Assembly (NCBI GenBank): GCA_900109895.1
Contig: FOBR01000001.1
Span: 1 to 64,000 of the forward strand
Source: a bacterium A37T11
GTDB lineage: Bacteria; Bacteroidota; Bacteroidia; Sphingobacteriales; Sphingobacteriaceae
Reading direction: 5' to 3'
DNA length: 64,000 bases
Below, piece by piece: positions 1,187 through 5,232 of this stretch (position 1 is the stretch's first letter; each line of letters begins with the position of its first letter). Below the pieces are notes generated by a model that was not told where the DNA came from, ran no database searches, and saw only the letters and a list, made by a program, of their open reading frames with translations. The position numbers and the translations under genes were made by a program.

Positions 1187-1218
1187 TTTGTGATACGATA
1201 TATTACATATTACATTTG
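1187..1218 (+). promoter_or_regulatory. Bacteroidota-type promoter of higBA
   Basis: TTTG at 1187-1190 and TACATTTG at 1211-1218, 20 bases apart, fit the phylum's housekeeping promoter (TTG, then TAnnTTTG). The -7 box ends four bases before the higB start codon at 1223, so the transcript would have almost no leader. Confidence 0.55.
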
Positions 1219-1222
1219 TAAC

Positions 1223-1501
1223 ATGATTGAGCAAATCCGGCATAAGGGATTACGGCTGTTTTGGGAAAAGGGTGACCGATCAAAGTTGCCTGCCGCCCAA
1301 ATTGCTAAAATTCGACTTATCCTGACATTGCTAAATAGCGCCAAAGTTGTAGACGACATTAATTTTCCCGGGTCGGATTTCCATGGATTGAAAGGCGAAC
1401 TTGCCGGGTTTTACGCTGTTAAAGTGACTGGGAATTACCGGATCATTTTTCGCTTTGTCGATGAAAACGCTGTGGATATTGATTATATAGATTATCATTA
1501 G
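1223..1501 (+). CDS. higB: HigB-type toxin, RelE/ParE superfamily
   Basis: The 92-residue protein matches the HigB family in length and pattern: an early KGLRLFWEKGD, a central FPGSDFHGLKGELAGFYAVK, then GNYRIIFRF and the C-terminal DIDYIDYH. HigB toxins are ribosome-associated mRNA interferases that cut mRNA during translation and are neutralised by HigA. I chose the ATG at 1223 over an upstream one at 1190 because it gives the family's usual N-terminus. The gene is followed 14 bases later by its antitoxin, in the toxin-first order typical of higBA. Confidence 0.88.
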   Translation: MIEQIRHKGLRLFWEKGDRSKLPAAQIAKIRLILTLLNSAKVVDDINFPGSDFHGLKGELAGFYAVKVTGNYRIIFRFVDENAVDIDYIDYH

Positions 1502-1508
1502 GAGGAGG
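1501..1508 (+). promoter_or_regulatory. strong Shine-Dalgarno of higA
   Basis: GGAGGAGG stands seven bases before the higA ATG at 1516. Near-perfect Shine-Dalgarno sequences are rare in this phylum and in this window. It overlaps the end of higB and would favour high antitoxin output from the shared message. Confidence 0.6.
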
Positions 1509-1515
1509 ACAAAAA

Positions 1516-1830
1516 ATGGCAACACAGGGCATGCCACCGGCACATCCCGGGGAAGTATTAAAAGGATTGTACCTAGACGCAATGGACAAAACAATTACGC
1601 AAGCGGCTACAGATTTGGGCATTTCCCGCAGAACACTGTCCATGCTGGTCAATGGCCATTTAGGGGTAAGTGCCGAAATGGCACTGCGATTGAGCCAGGC
1701 ATTGGGTACGACACCAGAACTATGGCTTAACATGCAGCAAAGTTTTGATTTGTGGCAAGCTAAGCAGCATATGGATCATATCCATGTTCAGGTGATGCGT
1801 ACAGTAAAAGACCGGATGGTGGCAGAATAA
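1516..1830 (+). CDS. higA: HigA-type antitoxin, XRE DNA-binding family
   Basis: The 104-residue protein shows the HigA/VapI pattern: PPAHPGEVLKGLYLD at the start, a helix-turn-helix across QAATDLGISRRTLSMLVNGH, then MALRLSQALGTTPELWLNMQ and DLWQAKQ. HigA binds HigB and represses the operon promoter. The stop codon abuts the second copy of the guide-RNA-like scaffold sequence that runs on the opposite strand, so the 3' ends of two unrelated systems meet here. Confidence 0.9.
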   Translation: MATQGMPPAHPGEVLKGLYLDAMDKTITQAATDLGISRRTLSMLVNGHLGVSAEMALRLSQALGTTPELWLNMQQSFDLWQAKQHMDHIHVQVMRTVKDRMVAE

Positions 1831-1933
1831 TGATATCCATTCCATAACAACCCTTACGGCTGAACAAGCAGTCTCTGAATTGGGTTTTGGCTATAAGCAA
1901 TAGGCTTTTGGCATGTGCAAAGCCAGCTTTTCG

Positions 1934-1954
1934 CTTTAAGCTTTCCGCTTAAAG
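1934..1954. other. perfect 8-base hairpin after the last repeat
   Basis: CTTTAAGC (1934-1941) and GCTTAAAG (1947-1954) form an uninterrupted stem with a five-base loop. On the minus strand it begins five bases after repeat A ends. No T-run follows, so it is more likely an RNA fold or protective 3' structure of the guide transcript than a standard terminator. Confidence 0.45.
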
Positions 1955-1958
1955 AATT

Positions 1959-2116
1959 CCTTTCAAACTGTGGTCATCAATAACCCAATATTCTTTCTTG
2001 ACGTTAATAGGATTGTTGTATATACCTTTCAACATGTGATCACCAATACAATGAAGGTTCGCACTCCGGTGCGCTGATTATTTATATATATCCTCTAAAT
2101 TATGTTCATCAACAAC
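1959..2116 (-). CRISPR. degenerate CRISPR-like array, three repeats
   Basis: Three related units of 25-26 bases read on the minus strand. C (2092-2116) begins GTTGTTGATGAAC and ends AATTTAGAGG. B (2025-2049) begins GTATTGGTGATC and ends TGTTGAAAGG. A (1959-1984) begins GTTATTGATGACC and ends GTTTGAAAGG. Their low ends are 66 and 67 bases apart, leaving intervals of 42 and 40 bases. The first scaffold copy ends in the same 67-base phase (2159). The repeats are diverged and few, and no cas1 or cas2 is present, so this is at most a fixed, guide-encoding array rather than an adaptive one. One interval contains a small hairpin, CGCAC/GTGCG (2060-2073). Confidence 0.5.
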
Positions 2117-2209
2117 CTAAAATAAATAGATATTCAGCGAGTATCCACACGATCTCACCCTACGGCTGAACAAGCAGCCTCCTATATTTTCAAAGACCAA
2201 AACCAGGGA

Positions 2210-3322
2210 TCATTCCTCAATTACATGAATCCCGGCCTTTTTAGCCTTATAAGCTATTTTTTCTTTCAGTCCATAATAACTCCAATTACGTAACAGGAAT
2301 TCCTCCTCCTTCGCCACTTCTTCCTTTTTAGCTTGATTAACCAGCAATAATGTGCCTGCCTGCGTTTTAATACACGTATCTATTAGGCGCCGGCTGTACA
2401 AATGAAGACGGCTATTTACATAGCTGATCTCCTTAGCCGTATAGTCGTCCAGGCTTTTCAACTTCCTTTTGCGGCCCTTACCTCCTTTATTAAAAGTAGA
2501 CCCGCGTTGCAAGCGGTGCCTGGCGGCCTGAATAGCCAGCCTGCGGTGCAAAAACTCCTCCTTATTACCGATCTGAAAATGCTCTTTCCCCACTTTTACG
2601 ACAATCGGATGTTCCAGTGATAAAGAAGCCTCCGCAATAATCGCATCATTTAAGTGGTGCTCTTCCTGCTCCATCTCAAAGGTGGCCAGCAGGTATAACT
2701 TCCCTTGATCAATTTTTAATGAACTGGTACGTAATTTCAATGTTCCGGCCAATGTACGCTGCAACAAAACCTTTTTGTCCGACCTGTCTTTGCCCAAATA
2801 GGTTTTAAACGGGATATTGAATAAGCTGAACATATAATCATGCCCTTTATCCCCATTGGCCAGTTTCAATTTATCGGCACCAAAAGGCAGCGGAATATTC
2901 CGCTTATAATTACGTAGCGATTTCTCACCCTTCCAATAAGCCTCCCTTTCGGAATTGTAAAGGCTGTTTAGCGTATTATTCAAGTTAGAAAAAATATTGG
3001 AGGGCATCTTGCCCAAAAAGTTACTGGAAAGGATTCGGTAGGTTGTATTCATCCGGGACGAGTTGAGAATACCTTCTTCATCTTTTTTCTTATCGGCAAT
3101 TTTTACTTTCACATCGTCCGTAAAATAAATTAGGTCTTTAACCCGATCTTGCACATACAGGTTAGTGAAGATCAAGTTGGCGGCCTTGGCAGCCATCCAT
3201 TGCCAGTCCCACAACTGTTGGTAATAAGCTTTGCGCTTTTCGGCATCATCGCAATCAATGTGTACCTGGATTTTCCGGGTCAGGATGATCTTTTTGGGCG
3301 CTTTTAGTGTCTCTTGTTCCAT
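2210..3322 (-). CDS. nuclease-dead Cas12f/TnpB-like RNA-guided DNA-binding protein
   Basis: The 370-residue protein has the architecture of compact Cas12f/TnpB proteins but cannot cut. Residues 250-315 carry the Lys/Arg-rich bridge-type segment (IGNKEEFL, RLQRGSTFNKGGKGRKRKLK). Residues 346-365 carry the late family motif NWSYYGLKEKIAYKAKKAGI. The RuvC-I aspartate is replaced by Lys243 in PIVVKVGKE. The RuvC-II glutamate position (about 328-329, LLLVNQ) is Val/Asn. The chain stops at residue 370, before the zinc ribbon and RuvC-III aspartate. Its start overlaps the sigma gene's stop by one base (TAATG), so the two are probably made together. Role by inference: binding of guide RNA and DNA to place the partner sigma factor. 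It resembles the dCas12f-sigmaE systems reported for Bacteroidota, as I recall them. Confidence 0.82.
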   Translation of the reverse strand: MEQETLKAPKKIILTRKIQVHIDCDDAEKRKAYYQQLWDWQWMAAKAANLIFTNLYVQDRVKDLIYFTDDVKVKIADKKKDEEGILNSSRMNTTYRILSSNFLGKMPSNIFSNLNNTLNSLYNSEREAYWKGEKSLRNYKRNIPLPFGADKLKLANGDKGHDYMFSLFNIPFKTYLGKDRSDKKVLLQRTLAGTLKLRTSSLKIDQGKLYLLATFEMEQEEHHLNDAIIAEASLSLEHPIVVKVGKEHFQIGNKEEFLHRRLAIQAARHRLQRGSTFNKGGKGRKRKLKSLDDYTAKEISYVNSRLHLYSRRLIDTCIKTQAGTLLLVNQAKKEEVAKEEEFLLRNWSYYGLKEKIAYKAKKAGIHVIEE

Positions 3323-4140
3323 TACGCAGATTTTTTATTTTTCTTAATCACCGCATGGGCTTGGATGAACAGTTGCTTCACCAACCCATCGTCCAGGTGC
3401 AGGGCTGCCGCTATTTCTTCAAAGCTGTACTGCATTTCATAACGCAGGGTGAATACCTGCGCCTGCTCTTCGCTCAGCATCCCTTCGGTCACCAAGGGTT
3501 TGCTGCGGGTGGCATTGTCCAGCCGGGCGGTATCGGCCAAGGCCGCTTTCAGGTTGGCAATGCATTGCTCCACGCGCATCCCGACCTCATAATCGGAGAT
3601 GCCGCCCAAGTGATGGGCTATGCGTTCGTAATTGAAACTGTATTTGAGGCAGAGCCGGATGAATAACTGCTGCTGTTCATTGACATGTGGAAAAAGTTGG
3701 TTGATCTTTTCCAGTTGTTGCTGTTTTTCCTGTTCCAATTGCTCCAAATAGACCAAATCCTCTTCATCGGCCTCCTCCAGTTCATAGCCCAGCATAAATT
3801 CCTGGTAGTCTTCTATGCCGTCCAGTTGCAGCATGCTCCTGTAAAAGCGGTTTATGGTCTTACCATAGTAGGCTTTACCGGCTTCCCTAATCTGCATGCC
3901 TAGGAATTCATGCAGGTGAGCCACATCCCGGATGTTCACCCGCATGAGCCAAAGCCGCAAAAAGGCTTCCTGTGCCATGCTGCTGGCCACCACTTCTTCT
4001 TTTACAAAACGGATAGCCCGGTAAGCATAGTGCTTATAATAGGCATTGTAAAAATAGTTCAACCCTGTTTCTTCACCGGCCTTTAGTCTTAGCAAGTTCT
4101 TTTCTGCCTGCTGTTTTGATTTGAGTAACGTTCCAGTCAT
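3322..4140 (-). CDS. ECF-like sigma factor, partner of the dead Cas12f-like protein
   Basis: Starting at the ATG at 4140, the protein has 272 residues, well above the usual 170-200 for ECF sigmas. Residues about 14-84 match the sigma-2 region that binds core RNA polymerase and the -10 element (AGEETGLNYFYNAYYKHYAY, then AQEAFLRLWLMR). Two regions resemble sigma-4: about 147-199 (FNYERIAHHLGG) and 218-267 (LSEEQAQVFTLRYEMQYSFE and EIAAALHLDDGLVKQLF). A linker rich in Glu and Gln (about 119-146) lies between. The extra sigma-4-like module may be the docking site for the Cas12f-like partner; that is inference. An upstream in-frame ATG at 4188 lies within the operator block and was not chosen. 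No anti-sigma gene is adjacent. Confidence 0.82.
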   Translation of the reverse strand: MTGTLLKSKQQAEKNLLRLKAGEETGLNYFYNAYYKHYAYRAIRFVKEEVVASSMAQEAFLRLWLMRVNIRDVAHLHEFLGMQIREAGKAYYGKTINRFYRSMLQLDGIEDYQEFMLGYELEEADEEDLVYLEQLEQEKQQQLEKINQLFPHVNEQQQLFIRLCLKYSFNYERIAHHLGGISDYEVGMRVEQCIANLKAALADTARLDNATRSKPLVTEGMLSEEQAQVFTLRYEMQYSFEEIAAALHLDDGLVKQLFIQAHAVIKKNKKSA

Positions 4141-4167
4141 ATTATCTGCGTTTTTCTTACCAACAAT

Positions 4168-4231
4168 ACAAAAGTGGTAAAAACCCACAAAGAAAAAGAG
4201 CGGTAAAAAACCGGTAAATTGGTATTTTACC
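4168..4231. promoter_or_regulatory. duplicated operator block, copy 1
   Basis: This 64-base block matches 5169-5232 without gaps at 51 of 64 positions by my count. It is built from GGTAAAA units and contains the inverted repeat CCGGTAAA/TTTACCGG (4211-4233). It begins 28 bases upstream of the sigma-gene start at 4140. A rightward -7 box TAACTTTG follows at 4236-4243, so it faces both directions. It probably binds the XRE regulator encoded at 5260. Confidence 0.6.
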
Positions 4232-4740: not shown

Positions 4741-5148
4741 TTAAGGCATTTTAGGCTCCTTATCGATGTTCTCTTGTATATCAAGGCCTGCCAAAAACAA
4801 CTCATATTGTGTATTACACCATTATAATAGTGCATCCATTTGCTGAAAAAGCACGTGCAGTTCATGTTGCTGGATATCATAATCATCCCGGTAGCGCACA
4901 AAAGAGGAAAGATGCCCATCCCGATTTTAGATCGGGAAAGAAATGAAGGCCTCCGTCACATTTATGAGTGATGTCAATTGTTTACAGGCCCATTCCTTTG
5001 TTTTTGAAGGCTGCTTACATTTAGTGGGGAGCACTATGAGCAAGTGCTGATAATTGACCCCTAAAAAATCATAGGAATATTGGAATACACGATCTATCTG
5101 GTCATTTTCATTAAATGCCTGGAAAAATAATTCGTTTCTTTCCATCAT
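4741..5148 (-). pseudogene. broken gene of unknown family
   Basis: An ATG at 5148 opens 73 residues (MMERNELFFQAFNENDQ; VNYQHLLIVLPTKCKQPSKT) that stop at TAA 4927-4929. The same frame continues beyond the stop with protein-like sequence (DGHLSSFVRYRDDYDIQQHE) to a second stop at 4822-4824, and further to 4741. The first stop lies inside a perfect 17-base palindrome CCCGATTTTAGATCGGG (4919-4935), which may be a small insertion. I do not recognise the family. It sits behind operator copy 2, so it once shared control with the XRE gene. Confidence 0.5.
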
Positions 5149-5168
5149 CAGATTTTCTTACTAACTTT

Positions 5169-5232
5169 ACAAAAGTGTTAAAAACCTGCACAGAATAGGT
5201 GCGGTAAAATACCGGTAAGCCGGTTTTTAACC
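5169..5232. promoter_or_regulatory. duplicated operator block, copy 2
   Basis: This is the partner of the block at 4168-4231, in the same orientation. It has a wide inverted repeat TTAAAAACC (5178-5186) and GGTTTTTAA (5222-5230), plus an inner GGTAAAATACCGGTAA. It stands between the broken leftward gene (start 5148) and the XRE gene (start 5260), fitting a divergent, self-regulated promoter. Confidence 0.6.

Follow-up and report, generated by a model that had tools for sequence, protein, structure and literature searches.

The 64,000-nucleotide stretch analysed here (the window), which is part of contig 15 in the 5.09 Mb genome of the Sphingobacteriaceae bacterium A37T11, carries on its reverse strand a two-gene operon for an extracytoplasmic function (ECF) sigma factor and a nuclease-dead Cas12f (dCas12f), followed by a locus for guide RNA. 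We consider it very probable from the sequence that this locus is a dCas12f-sigma RNA-guided transcription system, likely switching on a susC-susD-redoxin operon found on another contig (C52). Chains of a single solved complex (PDB 9n9q) are matched by both window proteins, so the type of system is known; the novelty lies in this particular member and its likely target. From homology to that complex, and from published work on such systems, we infer that the operon would produce both proteins, that the downstream RNA (the scaffold read from 2181 to 2131, repeat R1 and spacer 1) would load onto dCas12f, that the loaded complex would bind a site beside a 5' G upstream of the susC operon, and that the attached sigma factor would bring RNA polymerase to it, with transcription starting a fixed distance downstream.

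The two genes share a single base, the stop codon of the sigma gene (3324-3322) and the start codon of the dCas12f gene (3322-3320) forming TAATG, as the first-pass annotation of this DNA had described. An ATG start is assumed for the sigma gene, a GTG at 4188 being a possible alternative. Its product matches Pfam Sigma70_r4 (region 4) with E=1.3e-8 and TIGR02937 sigma70-ECF with 52.0 bits, above the cut-off of 42.9, so that with the overlap an ECF sigma gene is placed within the dCas12f operon; among PDB entries it matches the RpoE chain in 9n9q best (E=2.2e-32). Likewise, the second protein is matched by the PADLOC Cas12f models (E=2e-54) and by several Cas12f/TnpB structures, its best PDB matches being the chains named 'Nuclease-deactivated Cas12f' in 9n9c, 9n9m, 9n9o and 9n9q (E=9.5e-123). 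The precedent named in the first-pass annotation, a paired dCas12f and sigma factor, does therefore exist in 9n9q, to whose dCas12f and RpoE both window proteins are homologous over nearly their full length, sharing the dead RuvC-I motif EASLS and a truncated C-terminus. We take these four entries to be Bacteroidota RNA-guided transcription systems from the Sternberg and Chang laboratories (2025). In the dCas12f-sigmaE work of these laboratories the targets reportedly have a 5' G beside them and include susC, and transcription is said to start about 46 nt downstream; the 5' G and the susC-type target would be further points of likeness to the window locus, which differs in belonging to another species, in carrying its guide within a mini-array, CRISPR-like and decayed, that follows the scaffold, and in having a specific proposed target, the susC-susD-redoxin operon.

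The gene arrangement also bears on the possibility that dCas12f works as a guide-directed repressor which blocks the susC promoter, with the sigma gene as a mere neighbor. Dead proteins derived from TnpB, named TldR, are known to repress (PMC13418256), and like the protein proposed here they are catalytically dead, bind DNA under RNA guidance and regulate genes, the target in our case also lying upstream of a gene. However, TldR proteins have no sigma partner, whereas the sigma gene of the window overlaps the dCas12f gene, a frame occupies that place in nearly all relatives, and the homologous pair was solved within one structure; moreover, the nearest relatives of the window protein are Cas12f, in forms associated with a sigma factor, and not TldR. 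A TldR-like role is consequently regarded as very unlikely.

In the alignment with Cas12f proteins, the RuvC triad of the window protein is not intact. The column of the RuvC-I aspartate, part of VDLG in active Cas12f, holds Ser233; the first-pass annotation was right about the loss and mistaken about the residue, as Lys243 belongs to another column. Over 64 aligned sequences this column contains serine in 57, threonine in 4, and alanine, histidine and aspartate in one each. The RuvC-II glutamate, also said to be lost, is replaced by Val328 and occurs in none of the 64 sequences, and the protein ends, as had been noticed, before the RuvC-III and zinc-ribbon region with which active Cas12f (506-508 aa) continues. 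Type V-F nucleases such as PDB 9nzr are homologous in sequence (E=8e-42) but keep both the triad and the zinc ribbon, and it is these losses that decide against DNA cutting by a functional type V-F CRISPR defence system, even though the locus has CRISPR-like repeats and spacers and some spacers of Parapedobacter match within genes beside T-rich 5' flanks of the kind usual for Cas12f. With RuvC-I Asp, RuvC-II Glu and RuvC-III all absent, nuclease activity is refuted; in addition, spacer 1 targets the bacterium's own genome, in which Cas1 was not found (adaptation genes are not obligatory in all type V-F systems), and the probability left to such a defence system is practically negligible. The dN between the window dCas12f and its nearest relatives is 0.13-0.19 (0.13 for the closest), and the synonymous distance gave no score, which fits saturation and, together with the low dN, suggests that dCas12f is under purifying selection.

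Beyond the dCas12f gene, the first-pass annotation had pointed to a repeat-bearing, non-coding stretch on the same strand. Indeed, positions 1829-2210 hold no convincing gene and contain one full and one partial scaffold, three 36-nt repeats and two 30-nt spacers (Table 1). A conserved GAGGCTGCTTGTACAGCCGTAGGGTGAGG...CACTCACTAA element is found downstream of the dCas12f genes of many relatives, and 31 distinct scaffold copies from these, the window being excluded, were aligned by MAFFT, with no fitting to structure, and used to build covariance model R1, whose two stems were set by eye. In these stems, chosen on the same 31 sequences, 95.8% of the cells pair and 6 of the 13 pairs have changed on both sides; double-sided changes number 48 cells, where shuffles average 17.9 and 0 of 500 reach 48, and sliding the stem partners abolishes the pairing. 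The model finds its full match in the window with E=2.1e-15 (1.6e-13 genome-wide), the only strong scaffold copy in the genome, and a predicted guide RNA is thus encoded beside the two genes. The partial second scaffold is probably a relic. Rfam holds no family for the guide locus. In Pedobacter, Salegentibacter and a metagenome-assembled genome (MAG) of Sphingobacteriales, four loci carry 4 to 6 tandem scaffold copies in place of a CRISPR array.

Table 1. Coordinates of the dCas12f-sigma locus and of the adjoining genes in the window.
Feature	Position	Strand	Basis or remark
ECF-type sigma factor gene, 272 aa	3322-4140	-	First of two-gene operon; Sigma70_r4, TIGR02937, PDB 9n9q_C RpoE
Nuclease-dead Cas12f (dCas12f) gene, 370 aa	2210-3322	-	PDB 9n9c/9n9q dCas12f, E=9.5e-123; alignments
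Predicted guide-RNA scaffold, two stem-loops	2131-2181	-	Covariance model R1, 58.7 bits
Repeat R1, 36 nt, degenerate	2081-2116	-	Directly before spacer 1; compared with Parapedobacter repeat GTTGTTGGTGATCACAATTTGAAAGGTATATACAAC
Spacer (guide) 1, TAATCAGCGCACCGGAGTGCGAACCTTCAT	2051-2080	-	Matches site upstream of susC, contig C52
Repeat R2, 36 nt, 3' end intact GAAAGGTATATACAAC	2015-2050	-	Sequence
Spacer 2, AATCCTATTAACGTCAAGAAAGAATATTGG	1985-2014	-	No convincing genome target
Repeat R3, 3' end lost, decayed	1949-1984	-	Sequence
Partial second scaffold, first stem-loop only	1834-1875	-	Covariance model R1, 19.7 bits
HigA antitoxin gene	1516-1830	+	TIGR02607, E=5e-30
RelE-like toxin gene, weak match	1190-1501	+	Sequence match

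The scaffold is followed by a CRISPR-like mini-array in which three degenerate repeats alternate with the two spacers, the repeats being identified by comparison with five Parapedobacter genomes, where the same 36-nt repeat occurs in longer arrays. A genome search with nucleotides 1-20 of spacer 1 returned spacer 1 itself and one other site, with 3 mismatches, and the reversed control gave 0. At this second site, on C52, 26 of the first 29 bases match, with mismatches at positions 11, 17 and 20 and a perfect match over positions 1-10; by our arithmetic, which assumes equal base frequencies, about 4e-6 such matches are expected by chance over some 1.02e7 positions. A G stands immediately 5' of the site, and 118 nt separate the site from the downstream ATG of a susC gene, whose product scores above the curated SusC/RagA cut-off (TIGR04056) and which is followed by susD and a redoxin gene. 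The genome search proposed for the guides has therefore led, for spacer 1, to a unique and far-better-than-chance 5'-G site upstream of a susCD operon, the G rule itself being taken from published work.

Several observations weigh against this interpretation. Guide 1 is mismatched to its target at three positions, which may weaken targeting. Spacer 2 found only itself in the 20-nt genome search, and a looser 16-nt search gave 23 matches, itself included, against 42 in the reversed control, none of them convincing; hence the first-pass annotation was mistaken in speaking of guides in the plural, as spacer 1 alone has a target and the remainder of the guide locus looks decayed. Both R3 and the second scaffold are decayed, which together with the missing target of spacer 2 indicates that the locus is perhaps losing its function. 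The repeat pairs with the anti-repeat no better than shuffled repeats do, and anti-repeat pairing was dropped as support for R1; as the entire guide region likewise folds no better than shuffles (z -0.75), structural support comes from covariation alone. Among relatives, the guides of Mucilaginibacter (M. rigui) and Rhinopithecimicrobium gave no convincing target. It could thus be argued that the genes belong to the family in a locus that is decaying and no longer regulates, the match of the guide being too poor and the array, with its truncated R3 and half-lost second scaffold, a relic. However, both genes have been kept intact, the low dN goes with an apparently saturated synonymous distance, the main scaffold is of full length and scores well, and positions 1-10 of the guide match perfectly beside the 5' G, so that we judge such decay to be improbable. 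The proposal of the first-pass annotation that this is an RNA-guided sigma system is, in turn, supported by the homology to 9n9q, the covarying scaffold and the target of spacer 1.

A scan of genome contigs with the single dCas12f protein found nothing, and with an alignment as query it gave 71 related loci, nearly all in Bacteroidota (Parapedobacter, Pedobacter, Sphingobacterium, Mucilaginibacter, Mesonia, Salegentibacter, Chitinophaga, Paenimyroides and others) and one in a MAG labelled Neobacillus; relatives from the same family, Sphingobacteriaceae, include Parapedobacter, Olivibacter and Pedobacter. In 65 of the 71 loci a frame of at least 150 codons, called sigma-like for its size and place only, ends next to the start of dCas12f or overlaps it, usually with an overlap of a few bases. 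The loci of Parapedobacter (P. luteus, P. composti, P. koreensis, P. defluvii and P. soli) encode dCas12f proteins 74-77% identical to that of the window and have the same scaffold and repeat, and their targets lie upstream of SusC or redoxin-SusC operons; unlike the window, with its two spacers, they carry longer arrays of 30-nt spacers, placed directly after dCas12f and the scaffold in all five genomes. These arrays have about 6 to 32 repeat-like units, and Cas1 is present in these genomes away from them. The sigma genes of P. luteus and P. composti are nearly identical, whereas their spacers differ.

Within the genus, Parapedobacter spacers match sites outside the arrays. For 12 of 14 such hits (at most 2 mismatches in 30) the next gene on the same strand encodes SusC, a redoxin or a protein with the same type of N-terminus, a zinc-protease gene among the latter; SusC follows the redoxin gene in the cases checked, and some of the 12 genes are 1 to 2.7 kb from the spacer match. 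Four sites, each carrying a 5' G, are 125-141 nt ahead of the start codon of a SusC or redoxin-SusC gene; three of the four represent one spacer on homologous leaders and are not independent. Four other hits make up a second class, located within genes on the opposite strand; their 5' flanks are T-rich (TTTT, TTTA, TTA and TTCA), and they appear more like Cas12f nuclease targets than like the 5'-G sites. Mesonia and Salegentibacter have a common guide, GCGTGGGYTCTCT, which matches 5'-G sites at distances of 511-959 nt ahead of SusC-type genes. A further match of the guide in Mesonia algae is a 5'-G site 165 nt upstream of a sigma gene near the dCas12f locus, which suggests self-activation in this species. 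General autoregulation was rejected, a clear guide match upstream of a sigma gene being found in M. algae only; the first scan made for it was unfiltered and swamped by tandem guide copies.

Another putative feature of the targets is a terminator-like hairpin, found at five of nine, namely that of the window's guide and four in Mesonia and Salegentibacter, the four Parapedobacter sites showing no such hairpin. At the C52 target, GGCTGCTTGCC...GGCGGGCAGCC followed by TTTTTT forms a hairpin of 11 bp from +35 to +73, with a local fold of -22.9 kcal/mol and a z of only -1.6 in longer context; a simple terminator scan did not return it, likely owing to its loop limit of 8. The four Mesonia/Salegentibacter targets, one of which precedes a sigma gene of the same system, each supply the 5' arm of a hairpin that is followed by a T run and folds at -31 to -35 kcal/mol; its z is about -5 (from shuffles that, as for all hairpin z values, preserved base composition only). 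A transcript starting at about +46 would be unable to form either the C52 or the Mesonia/Salegentibacter hairpins. We tentatively hypothesize, with rather more doubt than belief, that the targets lie within or shortly ahead of an intrinsic terminator in the leaders of susC-type genes, that guided initiation skips this built-in terminator by starting inside the hairpin, and that only guided transcripts would escape termination. Because the +46 position is taken from published work on other systems, the four strong sites are one conserved sequence and the shuffles were limited to composition, the overlap with a terminator is a lead and not a finding; if true, it would explain the use of guided initiation at these leaders. 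In the four Mesonia/Salegentibacter leaders, upstream sequence also looks able to pair with the hairpin, in an attenuator-like manner, and Rfam holds no family for the three leaders searched.

Elsewhere in the window, a toxin-antitoxin pair adjoins the guide locus (1190-1830, forward strand), and a motif of roughly GGTTTTTANCACTTTTGTA was seen by eye on the reverse strand at 4160-4190 and 5165-5200, upstream of the sigma operon and of an open reading frame at 4927-5148, respectively.

The locus of A37T11 offers a concrete guide-target pair for RNA-guided transcription in a family of environmental Bacteroidota, and suggests that systems of this kind determine the set of nutrient-uptake (SusCD) operons expressed. 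Related species have loci that are otherwise similar and differ in their spacers, which could permit a rapid rewiring of uptake genes.
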